Assembly (NCBI GenBank): GCA_944383015.1
Contig: CALWOC010000001.1
Coordinates: 1 to 64,000 of the forward strand
Length of the DNA: 64,000 bases
Reading direction: 5' to 3'
Source of the DNA: an uncultured Clostridia bacterium
GTDB lineage: Bacteria > Bacillota > Clostridia > TANB77 > CAG-465
Shown one piece after another: positions 12,512 through 62,548 of this stretch. Within the stretch, counting starts at the first letter, position 1. Every line of letters begins with the position of its first letter. The notes beneath the pieces are model-generated. The model ran no database searches, was not told the DNA's origin, and was given only the letters and a program-made list of their open reading frames with translations. Both the position numbers and the translations under genes were made by a program.

Positions 12512-12982
12512 ATGAGAAAAAGGAATTGGATATTATTAATTGTATCTTTAGTTATTATTGTAGCTTTTATTTTTGTTATTATTTTGTCTAATAAAAATAA
12601 AAACTTGGGATTTATATCTGATGATTCAAGACAAATAGCTCTTGTACAGGAAATATATAAATTAATACTAGATGAAAATTTAGAAAATAAAATAAACCTT
12701 ACTAAAGATACTTCTTTATATATAAATTTTATTACATATAATCACTATGTATTAAGTCACGAATCTGCTATTAATACACTACTTGAATCGTACACTACAG
12801 ATAAAGATGCAGATAAATACACTTTAAGTAACGAATTTAACTTAAAAAAACAAACTCTTAAAGTAACTCTCAAAAGAGATGATATGCTAGATGAAAAGAA
12901 TTATATGTTTAAGTTAAAGATAAACAAAAAAGAAAATAAAATAGACTATAAGCTTATAGATACAGAATTTGTAATCGAATAA
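12512..12982 (+). CDS. Membrane-anchored protein of unknown function
   Basis: This 156-residue protein begins with positively charged residues and one hydrophobic helix (about residues 7-26), then a polar, Lys/Asp/Asn-rich domain. It is probably an N-terminally anchored protein with an extracytoplasmic domain of about 125 residues. I do not recognise the family. The gene is well formed: it has a near-consensus promoter, a ribosome binding site and its own terminator. It diverges from the GltD-like operon, and nothing in the context indicates a role. Confidence 0.8.
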   Translation: MRKRNWILLIVSLVIIVAFIFVIILSNKNKNLGFISDDSRQIALVQEIYKLILDENLENKINLTKDTSLYINFITYNHYVLSHESAINTLLESYTTDKDADKYTLSNEFNLKKQTLKVTLKRDDMLDEKNYMFKLKINKKENKIDYKLIDTEFVIE

Positions 12983-12986
12983 TATA

Positions 12987-13020
12987 AAAAGATAGAAAAT
13001 ATATACGTTTTCTATCTTTT
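12987..13020 (+). terminator. Intrinsic terminator
   Basis: A 13-bp perfect stem (12987-12999 with 13008-13020) and 8-nt loop run into Ts, four bases after the stop codon. Confidence 0.85.
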
Positions 13021-13033
13021 TTTGTCTCAAACG

Positions 13034-13062
13034 TTGTTTTTTTATGTAAATCATGATATAAT
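13034..13062 (+). promoter_or_regulatory. Promoter and leader hairpin of the 251-residue gene
   Basis: TTGTTT, 17 bp, then TATAAT. The following leader of about 75 nt holds a 7-bp hairpin, GTTATTC with GAATAAC, near 13088-13110. A strong AAGGAGGA ribosome site at 13131-13138 follows. Confidence 0.75.
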
Positions 13063-13146
13063 AAGAATCTCAAACATACATTGCATAGTTATTCGTAATG
13101 GGAATAACGGAATATTTTAATAATTTAATTAAGGAGGAATTTGTAT

Positions 13147-13896
13147 ATGAAGAAATTTAGTAATGTACAAAAAAGTGAAAATTTAAAAAAGGAGGATTAT
13201 AATTTAGCTACAAGAAACAAACTAGACAAAATAAACATTTTAGATAGCGATATTGAAGCTAAATTAAATAATCAAAGATACCAAAATGTTGGTAAATTAT
13301 TTATAATACTAAATAGTAAACTAGACAAAAAACTACCTTTTAATGTTAGAATTAGTTGTCTTAGTTTAGAAGCTCTAGCAAAGGCATCAATGTCTTATAC
13401 TCAAAAAGAATTTGAAAAACTTATATTACAAAATATTACACCAATTAATTTTTTTAGATTAGTAACCGACATTAGTATGCAAATTACATGTCCATCATCA
13501 AGAAAGATAGCACAAGACTATTTAGAATCAGAAAAGAGCTTAAAAAGACTTAATAGATTCTATAATGAATATTCAGACATATTTAATGAATGTCAAAAGT
13601 ATCATTATTCTTCTTTATATCTTTTTAATTTAGTAATAGATAATGCTAAAGCAAATAACACTCCATATACTAATATTTTTACTTTACTTCATAGTGATGA
13701 TAAAAGAAAAAGACATATTGTATGCAATATAATAAACGAAATGGAAAATGAAACTAGAAAAAATTATATTACTGAAGATACTGTCTTTGAATATCATCAT
13801 AAATTCCAAAAAATTGACAAAAATATAGAAAAGCTATTTAGCAAAATTGACTTAAATAGTCTTTACTCTATTGATTATCTTTATGAAAATATATAA
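13147..13896 (+). CDS. Hypothetical soluble protein
   Basis: This protein of 249 residues has no signal peptide or membrane segment and is rich in Lys, Asn, Leu and Ile. It looks all-helical, with a central Lys-Arg-Lys-Arg-His patch. I do not recognise the family. The open frame could start at a TTG at 13141, but the AAGGAGGA site sits 8 bases from the ATG at 13147, so that start is preferred. It converges on the C39 protease gene; a shared function is possible but unsupported. Confidence 0.75.
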   Translation: MKKFSNVQKSENLKKEDYNLATRNKLDKINILDSDIEAKLNNQRYQNVGKLFIILNSKLDKKLPFNVRISCLSLEALAKASMSYTQKEFEKLILQNITPINFFRLVTDISMQITCPSSRKIAQDYLESEKSLKRLNRFYNEYSDIFNECQKYHYSSLYLFNLVIDNAKANNTPYTNIFTLLHSDDKRKRHIVCNIINEMENETRKNYITEDTVFEYHHKFQKIDKNIEKLFSKIDLNSLYSIDYLYENI

Positions 13897-13899
13897 TTT

Positions 13900-13925
13900 A
13901 AGCGGAAAGTTAAATCTTTCCGCTT
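13900..13925 (+). terminator. Intrinsic terminator between convergent genes
   Basis: A GC-containing 10-bp stem (AAGCGGAAAG with its complement) and 6-nt loop are followed by Ts on the plus strand. On the minus strand the U-run is poor, so it mainly serves the plus-strand gene. Confidence 0.8.
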
Positions 13926-13929
13926 TTTA

Positions 13930-14529
13930 TTATCTATACAAAAGTAATATTCTACTCTCTTCATTTTTTACAAAAGAAAAATCTTCTTTTGTATGTGAAT
14001 TCAACCTTTTCTTTGTTACAATTCTATTATATTCAAAAGGTTTGTCAAATACCATTTTACAATCATCATCATCATCATATTCAAATTCATATAAATAATA
14101 TGGATCAAAAATATATACATTCTCTTTATTAATTTTTGTACAAAGTACATAATGCTCACATTCAGACCACACTCTAAAAACAGCAACACCACCATTTTTT
14201 AAGCAATTATTTAATTTTATATTATTTATATCAACATCATTTCCTCTTAGTATTTCTGCTTTTAAATCTAAATTTAAAGAATCTATGCTGCTATTTATCC
14301 AATTAGATAAATACTCAATTGCATGTGGAGATGTTCCACATAATCCAATTTGTCCATTTTGCCCTATTGTATCTAAAGTATATTGCGTTATATACTTAAT
14401 TATAACTGGAGGAATTTCTCCCCTTTTAAATAAAAAACGCATTGCATTTAAAAGTGTAGCTTGCCCACAATCATACTCTGTTATCTGATATGCAAGAGGC
14501 GTTTTCATATCTGCATACTTTTCAACCAT
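13930..14529 (-). CDS. Free-standing C39-type cysteine protease (double-glycine peptidase-like)
   Basis: This 199-residue protein has the layout of a bacteriocin-processing C39 peptidase: Gln15 for the oxyanion hole, Cys21 in Tyr-Asp-Cys-Gly-Gln-Ala-Thr-Leu, His126 in Cys-Glu-His-Tyr-Val-Leu, and Asp142 in Phe-Asp-Pro-Tyr. The Gln-to-Cys spacing of six residues is the same as in ComA-type exporters. The usual ABC transporter portion is absent, and no signal peptide or membrane helix is visible, so the protein is probably cytosolic. It starts 15 bp after a protein with a double-glycine leader, and its ribosome site overlaps that gene's stop. It probably cleaves that partner. A C39-like superfamily member with another substrate is the alternative. 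Confidence 0.75.
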   Translation of the reverse strand: MVEKYADMKTPLAYQITEYDCGQATLLNAMRFLFKRGEIPPVIIKYITQYTLDTIGQNGQIGLCGTSPHAIEYLSNWINSSIDSLNLDLKAEILRGNDVDINNIKLNNCLKNGGVAVFRVWSECEHYVLCTKINKENVYIFDPYYLYEFEYDDDDDCKMVFDKPFEYNRIVTKKRLNSHTKEDFSFVKNEESRILLLYR

Positions 14530-14544
14530 AATTTTTTTAATCTC

Positions 14545-15705
14545 CTATCTAACTTGCTCTTGTTCCTCTTTTTGTTTTTTTAACACATTTTTTTCTCTTA
14601 TCTCTTCTATATCTATAACTCTTTGAAGCTCCATTGCTTCAGAATTAAAGATTGCAAGTGCTGTAACTTGAAAACTTCTATTATATCTAAATCTCCTTCT
14701 TTTATCTAAATTATAACAAATATCTTTTTCAGCATCTGCTGATACATACATACCACTAAAAAATCTAACACATCCTTGCACTAGTCCTTCTGTTATGGCT
14801 TCGTCGTTATACCTTTCGTCCCATTCATTTCTTTCAGTAAGAACTGGTCTTTGTATTTTATTAATTATTTTAAACTTAAATTCTTGATAATTATCTTTAT
14901 ATCTTTCAAAATCTCTATATAATTGCTCTAAATATGGCTTTACTCTATCATAACACTGCTCTGATGTTTCTCCCGGATTTGGCATTACTCCACATCTTAA
15001 ATATGAATCTCTACTCTTAGGCTCTAAAGTATTATCCCATCTAAGCATATCTAAAAATTCTAGTTTTTTCTTATAAAAGCCTTTCTCAACTCTTGTCTTT
15101 ACATCCATATATACCTTATACTTTTGTTCTTCTGTAGTATGTTCAACTTTAAATGGATCAAATACATATAATTTTACTTCATTTTTTAAAATATCATGCT
15201 CTATAGAATCTACACTATCTACTACGGCAAATATATCTTCAAGCACTATTACATCACTAAGATCTGCTATCTCACAAATAACATTTCTTACATTATATTT
15301 TTCCATTTTTTCTCCAATTTGTTTTGCTACTATCTGTCTTACAATGTCATCTGGTACTACTTGATTTTTAGTTGCAGAGTTTACATTTATTAAAACATCT
15401 TTATACTGAGATGGTCTTACCATAACTGTTGTATCTTTTAAACTTCCATACATTACATACCTTGTTCCTGGATTATACTTTCCATCAACTAGTACTTCAT
15501 CATTATTTGCTTTTCCATCTGATAAATCCATTCTATCATATTCTTGCCATTTAGAGTAATACTCTGGTAAATCTGAAGGAGGTGTATACCATTTTATCTT
15601 AGGACTTGATGGTTTAAGCCCCCCTCTTACTCTTTCTAAATCTCTTGCTTCCATATTTGTATAATCACTGCAATCATTAGTAAGCATTACAAACTTATTC
15701 TCCAT
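14545..15705 (-). CDS. Large protein with double-glycine leader, putative C39 substrate
   Basis: I do not recognise the 386-residue body, but the first 29 residues end in Asp-Leu-Glu-Arg-Val-Arg-Gly-Gly. That gives Leu at -7, Val at -4 and Gly-Gly at -2/-1, the classical double-glycine leader of bacteriocin and pheromone precursors. The rest starts Leu-Lys-Pro-Ser-Ser-Pro and is hydrophilic, with many Asp/Glu/Lys/Arg residues and scattered Cys. It ends in a charged helix rich in Gln, Glu and Lys. No membrane helix or Sec signal is seen. At about 357 residues after cleavage it is far larger than normal double-glycine cargo. The TGAGGTG ribosome site is strong, and a C39-like protease follows in the same operon. 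Confidence 0.75.
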   Translation of the reverse strand: MENKFVMLTNDCSDYTNMEARDLERVRGGLKPSSPKIKWYTPPSDLPEYYSKWQEYDRMDLSDGKANNDEVLVDGKYNPGTRYVMYGSLKDTTVMVRPSQYKDVLINVNSATKNQVVPDDIVRQIVAKQIGEKMEKYNVRNVICEIADLSDVIVLEDIFAVVDSVDSIEHDILKNEVKLYVFDPFKVEHTTEEQKYKVYMDVKTRVEKGFYKKKLEFLDMLRWDNTLEPKSRDSYLRCGVMPNPGETSEQCYDRVKPYLEQLYRDFERYKDNYQEFKFKIINKIQRPVLTERNEWDERYNDEAITEGLVQGCVRFFSGMYVSADAEKDICYNLDKRRRFRYNRSFQVTALAIFNSEAMELQRVIDIEEIREKNVLKKQKEEQEQVR

Positions 15706-15760
15706 ATTATCACCTCAAAAATCATATATAGCATATCAAATAAAAATAAAAAAATCAATA

Positions 15761-15787
15761 AAAAAAGTGCCTGTTGGCACCTTTTTT
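15761..15787 (-). terminator. Terminator of the diaminopentanoate dehydrogenase gene
   Basis: GTGCC (15767-15771) pairs with GGCAC (15776-15780) around TGTT, extended by A/T pairs, with six Ts following on the minus strand. It overlaps the stop codon and separates this gene from the double-glycine operon. Confidence 0.75.
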
Positions 15788-16862
15788 ACTTATTTATATA
15801 CTCGTCTAATGATTTAGTTCTATACTGTAATATTGGCATTTGACTTGTTGGAATAAATCCTGGTTTTGCATTTATTACATCTGGTATTCTGTTTACAACA
15901 GTTGCACATGTAAGTTCTACAGTATTAGGTCTTGTTATTACTACAGTTGTATTAGGCTCACCATAAATAGTCCATTCATTTTTATCACACTCATCTGGTC
16001 CATATACTTTTCCTATACATTCTGTTTCAAATACAATTCCTTCTTTAGTTTGACTTGTAACAATAGCTGACATTCCTGTTGCGTCTCCTGCTTTAACAGT
16101 CATACCTAAAGTAGAAGAGTCTAAATCTGTACTATAAGTAGTTGGAACTGTTTTTTGTGTTTGATGTGTTATTGTAAGTCCCATTTTATCTGCAAGCCAT
16201 CCATTAACATTCCACATATATGAAGGTAAATACTCTCCTCTTTCTATTACAGCTTTACGCTCATCATCACTAACTTTATCTACTGATGCAACTTGTTTTT
16301 CAAATTCATCTAAAGTAAGACCTGCTCCATGAGCTTTGGCAAGTGCAATCCCATAATCCTCTACATTATAACTTGAACTTCCTTTAATTTTTGTTATTTT
16401 ATGTGTTGCTCCTCCAAGTACTGTTATTAAATTTCCCCAAAATATATCTTGATATCCAGCTCCTGTTAAAGTACAACCATTCTCTTTTGCAAGCTTATCT
16501 AGTTTCTCTGTTAAAGTAGGATTAGAATTTTGAGGATAAAAAGCTTCCTCACAAGTAGAAATAGCATTAATTCCAAGTTTTGCACAAATTTCAAAAGCAT
16601 CGTATACATCACTCATTAAGCTCATTGTAGTTATTATACAAATATCTGGTTTTGCTTCTTTAAGGATACTTTCTGCATCTTTAGCATTTAAAATAACTAC
16701 TCCTTTTTCTTCTCCCCCCATAACACTAGAAATATCTTTACCAAATTTTTTCTCGTCGATATCTAGTGCCGCAACAATTTGTGCTCCTTTTTCATAAACA
16801 TATCTCATAGTATAAACAGACATTTTCCCACAACCATATTGGGCAACTTTAATTTTACTCAT
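15786..16862 (-). CDS. ord: 2,4-diaminopentanoate dehydrogenase-like amine dehydrogenase
   Basis: This 358-residue protein has an N-terminal NAD(P) fold (Gln-Tyr-Gly-Cys-Gly-Lys-Met) of the dihydrodipicolinate-reductase type and a long C-terminal domain. Its length and motifs, such as Thr-Gly-Ala-Gly-Tyr-Gln-Asp-Ile-Phe-Trp-Gly, fit the clostridial enzyme of oxidative ornithine fermentation, which deaminates 2,4-diaminopentanoate to 2-amino-4-oxopentanoate. The usual neighbours (ornithine aminomutase oraS/oraE, thiolase ortA/ortB, racemase) are absent, and the gene is monocistronic. The family assignment is good; the exact substrate in this organism is uncertain. Confidence 0.75.
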   Translation of the reverse strand: MSKIKVAQYGCGKMSVYTMRYVYEKGAQIVAALDIDEKKFGKDISSVMGGEEKGVVILNAKDAESILKEAKPDICIITTMSLMSDVYDAFEICAKLGINAISTCEEAFYPQNSNPTLTEKLDKLAKENGCTLTGAGYQDIFWGNLITVLGGATHKITKIKGSSSYNVEDYGIALAKAHGAGLTLDEFEKQVASVDKVSDDERKAVIERGEYLPSYMWNVNGWLADKMGLTITHQTQKTVPTTYSTDLDSSTLGMTVKAGDATGMSAIVTSQTKEGIVFETECIGKVYGPDECDKNEWTIYGEPNTTVVITRPNTVELTCATVVNRIPDVINAKPGFIPTSQMPILQYRTKSLDEYINK

Positions 16863-16953
16863 AAATACCTCCTATTTTTGGATAATTTTAATATCCTATA
16901 TAAGTAGTATATCACAAAAAATATATTATTAAAACAAATCTACAATAAAACTT

Positions 16954-17829
16954 CTAATTTGTACACTTACCACATTTTGAACAACCATTACAGATTAACC
17001 TATTTGCACATTCTTTACAATTACTATTCCAATATGGCTTATATAAATCTTCATCCCTTAAAGGGATACCAAGTTCATCTGTTAATTTAAAATCTATTTT
17101 TTTACCAACATAACTAAGACCTAGCCTATATGCAATTTTAGACTGTGTCTGTTTACTTTTTATTTTATATAATTTTTTATCCTTTAAAAAGAAGTTTCCA
17201 GTTTCAATAAAAGCAAAAGTAGTATTATATTTTTTACATTGATCACTTAAATTCTTTACCCATTCATAATCTAAAACTCTTGCACCATCATAGTTTTCTC
17301 CACCTGCAATCACTTGTTCTATAATACCTTGCTTTAAATATTTTTCTATATTCACTTTACCTATAAAAGGTGCAACCATTATACCTTTATGCTTAAATGG
17401 AAGTGAAAAAAGTATTGGTATTCTCTCGTCAGCTCTTTTTTGATTTTCACAAGTAACATTAAAAAATACATTTTCAAGTCCATCATTCCACCAACTTGGT
17501 AAATTTTCCATCACTCTTTGAGGTCTTTTAGTTAAAATAAAAAAAACAACATCAGGCCTTTGACGAATAATCTCCCACGCTTCATCTCTCCATTTATCTG
17601 CTTCTTCTAAAAAGAAATCTGATGTCATACATACTCTTATTTGTTCTCCACTTTTTACCTTATAATTACCTTTTCTATCTTTATGTAAAGGATAATTAAA
17701 GTTGTCCTTTACTTTATATATTAAGTTTCCTTGCTGTCCTCTTACACGATCTAAAAAATACATATAACAATTTTTACAACCTTCACTAATTTTTCTGCAG
17801 CCATGCCAAGGATTCCAAATATCATGCAT
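16954..17829 (-). CDS. DUF5131 / phage Gp37-Gp68 family protein with Cys-rich tail
   Basis: The N-terminus reads Ile-Trp-Asn-Pro-Trp-His-Gly-Cys...Gly-Cys-Lys-Asn-Cys-Tyr, the three-cysteine signature of DUF5131, a radical-SAM-like family common in phages and accessory DNA. The middle part has Phe-Phe-Ile-Leu-Thr-Lys-Arg-Pro and Ile-Ala-Gly-Gly-Glu-Asn, also family features. Residues beyond about 268 form a Cys cluster of seven cysteines in 20 positions, which could bind another Fe-S cluster or zinc. At 291 residues it is normal to slightly long. No prophage genes and no TcmP partner are adjacent. The reaction is unknown. Confidence 0.8.
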   Translation of the reverse strand: MHDIWNPWHGCRKISEGCKNCYMYFLDRVRGQQGNLIYKVKDNFNYPLHKDRKGNYKVKSGEQIRVCMTSDFFLEEADKWRDEAWEIIRQRPDVVFFILTKRPQRVMENLPSWWNDGLENVFFNVTCENQKRADERIPILFSLPFKHKGIMVAPFIGKVNIEKYLKQGIIEQVIAGGENYDGARVLDYEWVKNLSDQCKKYNTTFAFIETGNFFLKDKKLYKIKSKQTQSKIAYRLGLSYVGKKIDFKLTDELGIPLRDEDLYKPYWNSNCKECANRLICNGCSKCGKCTN

Positions 17830-18809: not shown

Positions 18810-20954
18810 TTATACCTCACCTTTCTTATAATAATTTGAGACTTTATTTAATATATCGCAATACTTTATTACTATTTCTTCATCATCTTTATTGTACCAA
18901 ACTGGTATTTTAAATGAATTATCATAAAAAGTATCTGCTCCTTGAAATTTTTCATTATCTTTTAGTATTTTATCATAAGATGGAAAGAAATAGCTAGGAT
19001 TTTTAAAAAGTTCTAAACGATTTAATGGACATGTTGAACCTGGTTTATCAAATTCAACGCCTCCTTCCTCATTTAATGCTCTAACAAACTCTTCAATCGG
19101 TGTATTATTAAACTTAGATGAGTCATATTTTATAATTAGTGCATAATAACTACATTTACTACCTTCATATGGAATATTTAAAGTTAGACCATCAATTTTA
19201 TTTACTGTATTTTTAACTATTTGAACCATATCTTGTTTTACTAAATTAATTTTATCTAAATCTTTAAATTGTTCATAAGCTATTCTAATTGCAATAGGAT
19301 GTGCTCTAAGCTTTAATCCTTTTCCTGTTACAGCATATTTATAGTCTGTACTATCTTTACTTATTTCTTGTTTACATCTTTTATTATAATGACCTAACAA
19401 TAACGCATTTTTATATATATACTTATTATTAGTAATTATAATTCCACCTTCTCCTCCTGTAATTATCTTATTTCCTTGTAAGCTAAATGCAGCAGCATCT
19501 GACCATTCTCCAAGTTTTTTTCCTTTATATTCTCCTCCATGAGCATGAGAACAGTCTTCTAACAAATAAATTCCATACTTATCTGCAATTTCTCTTATTT
19601 TATCCATTTTACATGGATATCCCCACATATGTGTTACCATTATTGCCTTTGTATTTTTATTTATTTTTTCTTCAATTTTTGTATAATCAATATTTCCAGT
19701 CTCATCACAGTCTACAAACACAGGCTTTGCTCCTGTTTGGAAAATTGGAGTAACAGTTGCAAAGAAAGTATATATTGGACAAATAACCTCATCACCTTCT
19801 TTTAAATTAATAGCATCATATAATGAATGAAGTGCACTAGTACCAGATGAGGTAACTAGTCCATATTCTTTATTATGGTACTTTGCAAAAGCTTCCTCAA
19901 ATTTTTTAAATATATTGCTATCATCATAGATTGAAATAGTGTCATTTAACTGCTCTATAACTGCTTTTTCAATTTCTGGCGTTATTTTTGGATGAATAAA
20001 TCTTCCCTCTTCTTTACTCATAACAGGATTTCCACCATTAATAGCAAGCTTAGTTATTGTATTCATAGGACAATGCTTTCCAAGTAGTTCATTAGCAAGC
20101 CTAATCTTTTTTTCAAGTCCTTTTTCATCTCTATTTATAACTTCATCTTTTATACTTACTTCTTGCTCTAAATATCTACATAATTTTATAACGCCATTTG
20201 GTGAAACAAATAAATCATTAAAAGAATTACAATAACTATTAGGATTATATCTATCATTTGCTGCAGCACAAAAAATCTTAGATAAAATAATCTTAGTTAC
20301 TCCATCATATAATACAATTTTATGTGTAAACTCTTCTAATACTTTGAAATTTAAATTAATCAATTCTTTTTTTATTTCATAAATTGGTACAATTTGATCC
20401 TTATTTTCACTAAATAACTCAATTATTTTTATACTAGCATTCAACTTTTTAGCAAGAGAAACGATTTTTTTCATATTTTCAATTCCATCATTTTGATTTC
20501 TTACTACAGTCATATTAATTCTAATATCTATCTTTTTATTTAAATTTCTAAGTTGAGATAAATTATATATTACTTTTGAAAGTTTTCCTTTTCTTTGAAC
20601 AATATTATCATAGGTATTTTCATCAAGACTATGAATAGATACATTTAGTCTTTCTACTCCCTCAAAGCATGGCATATTCTTATCTATGAGTTCACCATTA
20701 CTAACAACTGTTATATTTACACCTAACTCTTTTAAATTATTAATAATATCTAATATGTCATCTCTAATTAAAGGCTCTCCACCAGTTAAAGTAACAGTAT
20801 TCCACCCATATTTTCTTTTACAAAAATCTACAAGGAATTTGTAGTCCTCACTTGAAAACACTTCTTCTGTTCCTTTTTTAACTCCTTCTCCGTGACAAAA
20901 GTAGCAGTCATAATTACATCTTCTGCTTATTATAAGTCTTAACTCTTTATTCAT
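18810..20954 (-). CDS. Radical SAM - DegT/DnrJ/EryC1/StrS aminotransferase fusion
   Basis: A 714-residue two-enzyme fusion. Residues 1 to about 300 are a radical-SAM domain with Cys13-x3-Cys17-x2-Cys20, Thr-Gly-Gly-Glu-Pro-Leu near residue 58, and a later Cys set (Phe-Cys-Ala, Ser-Tyr-Cys, Ile-Lys-Leu-Cys-Arg) placed like the second cluster of MoaA. From about residue 306, Lys-Leu-Ala-Ile-Asn-Gly-Gly-Asn-Pro-Val is the usual start of a DegT/StrS PLP enzyme. It keeps Thr-Ser-Ser-Gly-Thr-Ser-Ala, Glu-Asp-Cys-Ser-His-Ala-His-Gly and the PLP lysine in Gln-Gly-Asn-Lys-Ile-Ile-Thr-Gly-Gly. A radical rearrangement or oxidation followed by transamination of a sugar-like keto group is the natural reading. 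The substrate is unknown. Confidence 0.88.
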   Translation of the reverse strand: MNKELRLIISRRCNYDCYFCHGEGVKKGTEEVFSSEDYKFLVDFCKRKYGWNTVTLTGGEPLIRDDILDIINNLKELGVNITVVSNGELIDKNMPCFEGVERLNVSIHSLDENTYDNIVQRKGKLSKVIYNLSQLRNLNKKIDIRINMTVVRNQNDGIENMKKIVSLAKKLNASIKIIELFSENKDQIVPIYEIKKELINLNFKVLEEFTHKIVLYDGVTKIILSKIFCAAANDRYNPNSYCNSFNDLFVSPNGVIKLCRYLEQEVSIKDEVINRDEKGLEKKIRLANELLGKHCPMNTITKLAINGGNPVMSKEEGRFIHPKITPEIEKAVIEQLNDTISIYDDSNIFKKFEEAFAKYHNKEYGLVTSSGTSALHSLYDAINLKEGDEVICPIYTFFATVTPIFQTGAKPVFVDCDETGNIDYTKIEEKINKNTKAIMVTHMWGYPCKMDKIREIADKYGIYLLEDCSHAHGGEYKGKKLGEWSDAAAFSLQGNKIITGGEGGIIITNNKYIYKNALLLGHYNKRCKQEISKDSTDYKYAVTGKGLKLRAHPIAIRIAYEQFKDLDKINLVKQDMVQIVKNTVNKIDGLTLNIPYEGSKCSYYALIIKYDSSKFNNTPIEEFVRALNEEGGVEFDKPGSTCPLNRLELFKNPSYFFPSYDKILKDNEKFQGADTFYDNSFKIPVWYNKDDEEIVIKYCDILNKVSNYYKKGEV

Positions 20955-58959: not shown

Positions 58960-60816
58960 TTAATCCATTTCAATTGCACCAGTATAAAGTCCATAATATG
59001 TTTTATGTTCTTTAATTAATTCATCATGATTTCCTCTTTCAATAATTCTACCATGATCAAGCACCATAATTAAATCAGAATTTCTTATTGTAGATAAACG
59101 ATGAGCTATTACAAATACAGTTCTGCCTTTCATAAGTTTATCCATACCTTCTTGAACTATTTTTTCTGTTCTTGTATCAATACTTGAAGTGGCCTCATCA
59201 AGTATTAAAACTGGTGGATTATTAAGTGCTGCTCTTGCAATAGATAAAAGTTGTCTTTGTCCTTGACTCAAACCTTCTCCTCCACCTTTAATTACTGTAT
59301 CATATCCTTGTGGTAAATCTTCAATAAAATAGTTAGCATTTGCAAGCTTAGCAGCTTCTACTACTTCTTCATCTGTTGCATCTAATTTTCCATATCGAAT
59401 ATTATCTTTAATTGTACCTGTAAACAAGCTTGTATCTTGTAATACCATTCCAAGAGATCTCCTTAAATCATCTTTTTTTATCTTTTCTACATTAATACCA
59501 TCATAACGTATCTTTCCTTCATTTATATCATAGAAACGATTAATTAAATTTGTAATTGTAGTCTTACCTGCACCAGTTGCACCAACAAAAGATACCTTTT
59601 CTCCCTCTTTGGCATTTAAAGATATATCATGTAATACCATTTTATTTGGTTTATACCCAAATGTAACGTTTTCAAACTCTACATTACCTCTAAGTTTTAC
59701 ATAACTAAGTGTTCCATTACGATGTGCATGCTTCCATGCCCACATACCAGTTCTTTCTTTTACCTCAACAATTTTACCATTTTCTTCTTTAGCATTTACT
59801 AAAGTTACATATCCATCATCTTTTTCAACAGGCTCATCGATAAGCTCAAAAATTCTTTGTGCACCAGCTAAAGCCATTACAATCGAATTCATTTGTTGTG
59901 ATACTTGACCTAGTGGATTTGTAAATGCTTTTACATACTGTAAAAATGCAGCAATTGCACCAATTGTAAGTATTCCATTTACAGATAAAATACCACCAAT
60001 TACTGCAACAAGTACATATCCTACATTACCAATATTCATTATACATGGCATTAACACATTTGCATAAGTATTAGCATTCGTTACACTATCACATAATTCT
60101 TCATTTAATTTATCAAAAGAGTTTTTATTTTCTTCTTCATGATTAAATACTTTAACCACTCTTTGACCTTCCATCATTTCTTCTATATAGCCGTTAAGTT
60201 CACCTATGTCTTCTTGTTGTTTAACAAAAAATTTAGAACTATTTGTTCCTAGATACTTTGATACAAAAATCATTAAAATAACCATTGCAGCCACCACTAA
60301 AGTTAAATATACATTAGTTGAAAGCATTGCAATAGCAACTGCAACCATAGAAACAACACAAGAAAATACTTGTGGAATGCTTTGGCTTAGCATTTGTCTT
60401 AAAGTATCTACATCATTAGTATAAGTACTCATTATTTCACCATGACCTTTTGAATCAAAATATGAAATTGGTAACTCTTCCATATGTTCAAACATTTCTT
60501 TTCTTATTTTATTTAAAACACCTTGTGAAATATTTATCATTAAACGATTATATAAGTAAGTACATACTACACCTACTAAATATACAAGAGCCATTATCTT
60601 TAATGTATTAAGTAAAGGAGTAAAATCTTTTACTTGACTTGTAATAAGTGGAGTAATATATTCATCTATTAAAACTTTAATAAATTGAACGCCAACAACA
60701 CCAACAAGAGCACTAATAATAATACTAATAAAAACAATTATAAATTGAAATTTATATTCTTTTGCAACATAACTTAAAAGTCTTTTAATTGTTTTTGACT
60801 TATTCTTTTTATGCAT
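58960..60816 (-). CDS. Heterodimeric ABC exporter, subunit 2
   Basis: A 618-residue half-transporter with six membrane helices (residues about 18-310) and an ATPase domain with Walker A Gly-Ala-Thr-Gly-Ala-Gly-Lys-Thr-Thr, signature Leu-Ser-Gln-Gly-Gln, and Walker B ending in Asp-Glu. A loop of about 40 residues before the ATPase domain (Thr-Gly-Met-Trp-Ala-Trp-Lys-His) is typical of one half of this type of exporter. There is no C39 protease domain. It overlaps its partner by 8 bp. Confidence 0.92.
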   Translation of the reverse strand: MHKKNKSKTIKRLLSYVAKEYKFQFIIVFISIIISALVGVVGVQFIKVLIDEYITPLITSQVKDFTPLLNTLKIMALVYLVGVVCTYLYNRLMINISQGVLNKIRKEMFEHMEELPISYFDSKGHGEIMSTYTNDVDTLRQMLSQSIPQVFSCVVSMVAVAIAMLSTNVYLTLVVAAMVILMIFVSKYLGTNSSKFFVKQQEDIGELNGYIEEMMEGQRVVKVFNHEEENKNSFDKLNEELCDSVTNANTYANVLMPCIMNIGNVGYVLVAVIGGILSVNGILTIGAIAAFLQYVKAFTNPLGQVSQQMNSIVMALAGAQRIFELIDEPVEKDDGYVTLVNAKEENGKIVEVKERTGMWAWKHAHRNGTLSYVKLRGNVEFENVTFGYKPNKMVLHDISLNAKEGEKVSFVGATGAGKTTITNLINRFYDINEGKIRYDGINVEKIKKDDLRRSLGMVLQDTSLFTGTIKDNIRYGKLDATDEEVVEAAKLANANYFIEDLPQGYDTVIKGGGEGLSQGQRQLLSIARAALNNPPVLILDEATSSIDTRTEKIVQEGMDKLMKGRTVFVIAHRLSTIRNSDLIMVLDHGRIIERGNHDELIKEHKTYYGLYTGAIEMD

Positions 60817-62548
60817 TTTCTTCTACTCCTTTCATTTGAGATTCATATACTTCTTGATATATTTTATTTGTCTTTAATAATTCCTCATTTGTTCCTATTC
60901 CATCAATTTTACCATTATGTAAAACAATTATACGATCTGCATCAATTACTGATGAAATTCTTTGAGCAATAATAATTTTAGTAGTTTCTGGTAAGTCTTC
61001 TCTAAATGCTTTACGTATTAATGCATCTGTTTTTGTATCAACAGCACTTGTAGAATCATCTAGTATTAATATTTTAGGCTTTTTAAGAAGCGTTCTTGCA
61101 ATACAAATTCTTTGTTTTTGTCCACCTGATACATTTGTTCCACCTTGATCTAACATTGTATCATATTGTTCTGGAAATTCTTTTATAAATCCATCTGCTT
61201 GAGCAAGTTTGCAAGCATTTTCTAACTCTTCAAAACTTGCTTCTTTATTTCCCCATCTTAAGTTTTCCGCAATAGTTCCTTTGAACAATACATTTTTCTG
61301 TAAAACCATTGATACTGCATCACGTAAAGATTTAATATCGTAGTCTTTTACATTTTTTCCACCAACTAATACATCACCATGTGTTGTATCATATAGTCTT
61401 GGAATTAATTGAACAAAAGTAGACTTTGAACTACCAGTACTTCCTATTACTCCTATTGTTTCTCCAGATTTGATTTTTAAATTAATATCCTTTAAAGCAA
61501 ATTTATTTGGATCTTTTTCATCACTATATACAAAATCTACATGTCTAAATTCAATATCTCCATTTTTTACATTTTTTATGCAATTCTTTTTATTCTTAAT
61601 CTTTGGCTCTTCTTCTATAACTTCTAAAATTCTCTCTGCTGAAGATGATGCCATTATAACCATTACAAAAACCATTGAAAGCATCATTAAACTTGCAAGT
61701 ATTTGCCAAGCATAAGTAATCATACTAGAAAGTTGACCTGTTTGCATACTTCCACCAACAATTAAATTTGAACCAATCCAAGATATCAACACTATACATG
61801 TATATATTGTAATCTGCATTGCTGGACTATTAAAAGCAACTATTTTCTCAGCTTTTTTAAATAATGAATATACCTCATCATTTACTTTTTTAAACTTATT
61901 TTTTTCATAGTCTTCACGAACATATGCTTTTACCACACGAATTGCTTGAACATTCTCTTGAACAACCCTATTTAAATGGTCATATTTTTTAAATACTTTT
62001 TCAAAATTAGGATGAGCTTTTAATGCAATATATACAAGTACAATACCTAGTAAAATTATTGCAACAATATATACTAATGAAAGTTTTGGACTTATACTTA
62101 ATACCATAAGCAAAGCAAAAAGCATCATTACAGGTCCACGAACTAATATACGAATTATCATTTGAAAAGCCATTTGAACATTTGTAACATCAGTTGTCAT
62201 TCTAGTAACCAAACTTGATGTAGAAAATTTATTAATATTTTCAAAAGAATAGTCTTGAATTTTATGAAACATCTCTTTTCTTAAATTTTTAGAAAAACCA
62301 GCACTTGCTTTTGCAGCAAATTTTCCAGAAAGCATTCCAAAAGCAAGTGATAACATTGCACTTATAATTAAAAATGTACCAATTTTTACAATATAATGCA
62401 CATCTCCATTATTAATACCAACATCTATTATTTTTGCCATTAAAAATGGAATTAGCACTTCCATAATAACTTCAAGAACAACAAAAATTGGTGTTATTAA
62501 TGCAGATTTTTTATACTCTTTTAAGTAACTAGCTAATTTTTTTACCAT
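60809..62548 (-). CDS. Heterodimeric ABC exporter, subunit 1
   Basis: A 579-residue half-transporter with six helices and an ATPase domain. Walker A is Gly-Ser-Thr-Gly-Ser-Ser-Lys-Ser-Thr, with Ser in place of the usual Gly before Lys. The signature is Val-Ser-Gly-Gly-Gln, and after Walker B the residue is Asp where Glu normally acts (Ile-Leu-Asp-Asp-Ser-Thr). It therefore carries the degenerate site of an asymmetric pair, as in BmrCD/TM287-288 exporters. It follows the MarR gene with overlapping start and stop. Confidence 0.92.
   Translation of the reverse strand: MVKKLASYLKEYKKSALITPIFVVLEVIMEVLIPFLMAKIIDVGINNGDVHYIVKIGTFLIISAMLSLAFGMLSGKFAAKASAGFSKNLRKEMFHKIQDYSFENINKFSTSSLVTRMTTDVTNVQMAFQMIIRILVRGPVMMLFALLMVLSISPKLSLVYIVAIILLGIVLVYIALKAHPNFEKVFKKYDHLNRVVQENVQAIRVVKAYVREDYEKNKFKKVNDEVYSLFKKAEKIVAFNSPAMQITIYTCIVLISWIGSNLIVGGSMQTGQLSSMITYAWQILASLMMLSMVFVMVIMASSSAERILEVIEEEPKIKNKKNCIKNVKNGDIEFRHVDFVYSDEKDPNKFALKDINLKIKSGETIGVIGSTGSSKSTFVQLIPRLYDTTHGDVLVGGKNVKDYDIKSLRDAVSMVLQKNVLFKGTIAENLRWGNKEASFEELENACKLAQADGFIKEFPEQYDTMLDQGGTNVSGGQKQRICIARTLLKKPKILILDDSTSAVDTKTDALIRKAFREDLPETTKIIIAQRISSVIDADRIIVLHNGKIDGIGTNEELLKTNKIYQEVYESQMKGVEENA

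Follow-up and report, generated by a model that had tools for sequence, protein, structure and literature searches.

The window, 64,000 nucleotides from an uncultured Clostridia bacterium, is the start of a 570-kb contig in a host genome of 1.65 Mb. Two consecutive genes on its reverse strand form the subject of this analysis. The first (window 14545..15705, (-)) encodes a 386-residue putative precursor protein of an orphan family, with 13 orthologues at 56-95% identity, and the second (13930..14529, (-)) encodes a 199-residue protein with the features of a free-standing C39-type cysteine protease. The named relatives are uncultured gut Clostridia. An earlier note on this DNA had described a 386-residue protein whose leader ends in DLERVRGG, and both the open reading frame and the motif, at residues 22-29, are confirmed.

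The two genes are separated by a spacer of 15 nt (14530..14544, (-)) which carries TAGATAGGAG, including a ribosome-site-like GGAG for the downstream gene. The short gap with this sequence indicates that the precursor and protease genes are closely coupled, as the earlier note had proposed on account of a ribosome site, and nine relatives have spacings of -11 to 16 nt. Terminator-like hairpins are found on both flanks, one just past the protease gene (13900..13925; its score is for the + strand, and the near-palindrome is shared with the convergent gene) and one dividing the pair from the upstream gene (15757..15790, (-)), so the gene pair looks like a unit of its own. A comparison with Rfam gave no match in window 12900-17000.

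The gene convergent with the protease gene (window 13141-13896) belongs to a fast-evolving family, is 251 residues long in translation, and has an unlinked paralogue (L168 8718-9491). Every one of the 13 precursor genomes has this gene and unlinked paralogues of it, as does only one other genome of the family, and the gene family is restricted to the clade of the precursor genomes. No link is claimed for it as a third component, since the co-occurrence reflects shared ancestry according to the GlmM tree. A small protein of about 130 residues, rich in beta structure, adjoins the unlinked paralogue (L168 9635-10051; L118 8322-8714) and also has an ArsR-type regulator and an SdpI-like membrane protein as neighbours. 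As a possible partner it was set aside because shared ancestry explains its co-occurrence as well, and Radical-SAM and DUF5131-like neighbours, kept in some loci only, were treated as background. Elsewhere in the window (18810-20954) there is a 714-residue protein in which a MoaA-like radical SAM domain is fused to a DegT/DnrJ-type aminotransferase domain; it adjoins a protein with two Nudix-like halves.

The precursor and its leader

The precursor has no family match in Pfam, NCBIfam, PHROG, PADLOC or PDB. Prediction of its structure, which the earlier note had suggested for the body as a check, yielded a model with pLDDT 61 and no significant fold match in the structure search, and no conclusion about the fold is drawn from these results. 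The protein is large and charged, it has no signal peptide, and with a highest 19-residue hydropathy value of 1.5 and a mean of -0.77 it has no membrane segment. After the putative cut, the predicted mature protein (residues 30-386) is 357 residues long, and its putative N-terminus Leu-Lys-Pro is well kept, with each of the three residues found in 12/13 orthologues.

The leader comprises the first 29 residues (15619..15705, (-)) with Gly-Gly at residues 28-29. Conservation of this Gly-Gly in homologues, named in the earlier note as a way of checking the leader, holds in 13/13 orthologues, and apart from G28 and G29 no column of residues 1-29 is invariant. The leader as a whole varies more than the body of the precursor, with a mean column entropy of 1.27 bits in residues 1-27 compared with 0.81 bits in residues 30-386 (13 orthologues). 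The codons of both glycines differ synonymously from species to species, and therefore it is the amino acids that are under selection; judged from these codon changes and the invariance of G28 and G29, the double-glycine leader is under purifying selection.

Between positions -20 and -3 the only columns that are hydrophobic in all 13 orthologues are -12 (M/V), -7 (L/V/I) and -4 (V/I). Residues -4, -7 and -12 occupy a hydrophobic groove in the LahT150 C39 domain, and leaders lacking hydrophobic residues at these positions are not cut by LahT150 (PMC6363468; PMC10885120). The leader columns of the precursor are thus exactly those of the published recognition rule for C39 peptidases, and the substrate rule (GG with hydrophobic -4, -7 and -12) is satisfied by 13/13 orthologues.

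When 1.02 Mb of the 1.65-Mb genome (62%) was scanned, nine of the 1,270 ORFs of at least 30 amino acids matched the -12/-7/-4/GG rule at some point in the first 60 residues. Leaving out the precursor, the remaining eight are accounted for by Nudix motifs, very short ORFs and stretches that are hydrophobic or resemble membrane segments, so that no comparable second leader protein was found in the 1.02 Mb. A leader profile search over 36 genomes likewise rendered the 13 precursors and no second protein. The best match outside the precursors (G006, E 0.07) runs antisense to a gene resembling a transporter and was taken as chance.

The protease and enzymes of the same fold

The earlier note had described the second gene as a C39-type protease with Gln15, Cys21, His126 and Asp142. 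These residues are present and are invariant in 14 homologues (alignment A2), and the equivalent residues remain invariant in a set of 23 rows that includes distant solitary relatives. The Gln-Cys spacing of 6 and the His-Asp spacing of 16 are those of LahT. The match to Pfam PF03412 is a narrow pass, 22.8 bits with a cut-off of 22, while all ten aligned members of the protease family match the same model with E <=0.1 (best 5.5e-07). The predicted structure has pLDDT 74 and is weakest at residues 1-19 and 52-65. It aligns with the peptidase domains of ComA, PCAT1 and LahT with Z 9.8-10.5 and rmsd 2.8 over about 121 residues; when PeiR is included with these three, Z is about 10-11. A plain Foldseek search rendered the same families, with E 0.001 not reached. 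By sequence and by modelled fold the 199-residue protein can accordingly be placed in the peptidase C39 family.

A C39 fold does not always mean a protease. CtaG and BtrH are also single-domain proteins with a C39-like fold and a Cys-His-Asp arrangement, but they are longer and catalyse acyl or amide transfer in antibiotic synthesis; to our knowledge, no leader-bearing partner is known for enzymes of this type. They provide the main rival explanation, in which the present enzyme would be an acyl or amide transferase and the Gly-Gly of its neighbour a structural turn or a docking site for the partner. The narrow Pfam support is compatible with this, the model also aligns with CtaG (Z 8-9), and a sequence comparison with PDB has CtaG chains as its best matches, with E 0.021 in a local match over 66 positions. 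However, the Z scores to the C39 peptidases are slightly above those to CtaG, the spacing of Gln, Cys, His and Asp is that of LahT, and the leader of the partner fits the C39 rule at four separate features, -12, -7, -4 and GG, in 13 orthologues. A transferase is therefore considered unlikely.

The earlier note's statement that the protease lacks an ABC transporter also stands: the protein consists of a single domain of 199 amino acids with no transporter domain. Single-domain organisation is also known from C39_2 proteins (PMC10318531). The exporters of the PCAT/AMS type (ComA, PCAT1, LahT) share with the present pair the C39 fold, the local spacing of Gln, Cys, His and Asp and a double-glycine leader with hydrophobic -12, -7 and -4. 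On the other hand, the protease has neither a transmembrane nor an ATP-binding domain, there is no exporter in the locus, and the mature part of the cargo is 357 residues long and not a small peptide. The protease is not a PCAT/AMS exporter; by analogy, it would work like the peptidase half of one.

Proposed leader removal and its relation to export

The accepted role of C39 proteases and double-glycine leaders is in export. No partner for export was found among the genomes of the genus: a Pfam C39 search in 22 of them rendered no C39-ABC fusion, in a search that also misses several members of the protease family and that a very divergent fusion could escape, and no transporter gene lies beside the pair in any locus inspected. 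The window does contain an ordinary heterodimeric ABC exporter at 58960-62548, about 43 kb off, with no other link to the pair.

This exporter, together with the observation that every characterised C39/GG system serves export (PMC6363468), leaves room for a split arrangement, in which the free protease strips the leader while secretion of the large protein, which would then act outside the cell, is left to a separate ABC or other exporter encoded elsewhere. Such an arrangement is distinctly unlikely given that no locus has a transporter gene with the pair, that neither C39 nor C39-like fused exporters were found in the 22 genomes, and that the cargo is large and charged and has no membrane segment.

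The preferred reading is that the two genes are a self-contained precursor and protease unit, in which a cytosolic C39 protease strips the leader apart from export; this is given about an even chance of being correct. The large protein would be made with its 29-residue double-glycine leader, and the protease from the next gene would act on it in the cytosol without a transporter, gripping the leader via the hydrophobic residues at -12, -7 and -4. A cut after Gly29 would then give the 357-residue protein beginning Leu-Lys-Pro. What the sequences show is the leader with its conservation, the catalytic residues, the adjacency of the two genes and, for the genomes searched, no C39-ABC fusion; cleavage, its cytosolic location and its purpose are inferred. 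Removal of the leader would most likely serve to mature or activate the protein within the cell, and not to export it, because the protein has no signal peptide or membrane segment, no C39-fused exporter was found in the 22 genomes, and no export machinery accompanies the pair.

The earlier note had started from the premise that known double-glycine cargo is processed by a transporter-fused protease. As a rule for all such leaders this is too strong, because PoyH in polytheonamide biosynthesis is a free-standing C1A protease which cuts at an LDQAAGG motif (PMC10885120). PoyH resembles the present protease in being a transporter-free cysteine protease that acts on a leader of double-glycine type (PMC10885120), and by this comparison it is the nearest functional analogue. 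It differs in that it is a C1A and not a C39 enzyme, and in acting on a modified natural-product peptide whose cluster also encodes modification enzymes. A literature search, thin on subscription journals, rendered no description of a free-standing C39 protease with a large cargo.

Distribution and ancestry of the pair

Full-length orthologues of the precursor number 13 and all belong to one clade of the genus of the window. A scan of one genome per species, covering 84,980 prokaryote species, rendered 12 precursor loci, the same twelve relatives, and no credible match was found in 290 other genomes of the class. In the GlmM tree, all sampled precursor genomes are found in one supported clade, which also contains the precursor-less G006, and the precursor was thus probably gained once. 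A phage origin was discarded, since neither protein had a match in viral contigs and the precursor was absent from the phages searched, as was a plasmid origin, with no match to the protease in the plasmids searched.

The co-occurrence of the two genes proposed in the earlier note holds in part. The protease gene is directly downstream of the precursor in 10/13 genomes, and the adjacent pair is kept in these species down to about 50-60% identity. The remaining three (G017, G026 and G020) have a leader-bearing precursor, but no protease of the C39-like family was detected in them, which counts against the preferred reading; G017 and G026 are near-copies, and G020, which is 77% complete, has a sigma-factor-like gene after the precursor in the place of the protease. 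In addition, G009 has a divergent precursor homologue without GG and also lacks the protease, and this joint absence is counted in favour of a precursor and protease unit.

Within the genus, the order and the phylum there are also protease homologues that have no precursor. They were found in G006, G019, G027, G047 and G086, and eight genomes farther away in the phylum have solitary forms as well; no leader-bearing neighbour was seen in the six of these eight loci that were inspected (G485 and G315 left out). These solitary C39-like proteins of other Bacillota show full-length homology to the protease, share its invariant residues and have no transporter, but differ in having no leader-bearing neighbour in the loci inspected. 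In the midpoint-rooted protease tree, the paired forms group with the solitary protein of G006, the solitary relatives of the order adjoin this paired group, and the distant solitary family is outside. Pairing therefore looks like a local arrangement of later date than the protease family itself, which is mostly solitary. Since most members stand alone, other substrates must exist and the ancestral job would have been something else, a further point against the preferred reading.

It could then be asked whether the adjacency is incidental, with the protease keeping its older solitary role and the leader-like segment of its neighbour being recognised by some other factor or by none, which would suit both the age of the family and the three genomes where a precursor with GG persists without the protease; this is very doubtful when the leader fits the C39 rule exactly, has no counterpart in the 62% of the host genome scanned or in the 36 genomes of the profile search, and stays next to the protease gene over such a range of identity. 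Because all precursor genomes are in one clade, co-occurrence is weak evidence, and the argument for pairing is carried by the leader chemistry and the adjacency.

Taken as a precursor and protease unit, the double-glycine leader and the free-standing C39 protease might constitute a cytosolic switch that needs no transporter and by which a large protein from a new family is matured or activated, a proposal put at somewhat less than an even chance. A clean case of two genes, in which the cargo is large and no C39-fused exporter was found in the genus, would uncouple leader processing from transport, and it suggests that in a small clade of gut bacteria the C39 leader tag can serve within the cell with no pump involved. 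The pair would also open up an orphan protein family whose activity is maybe gated by a single cut, and would supply a naturally free-standing C39 enzyme with which leaders could be removed. Stand-alone C39 domains are wanted as tools (PMC10885120).

The solitary C39-like proteins from other Bacillota (L092, L093, L095, L097, L098 and L099) all have IEYFI as a conserved tail at their end, which is absent from the paired form. A broken copy of a solitary protease gene with in-frame stops is found next to intact genes in L077 (7386-7992).
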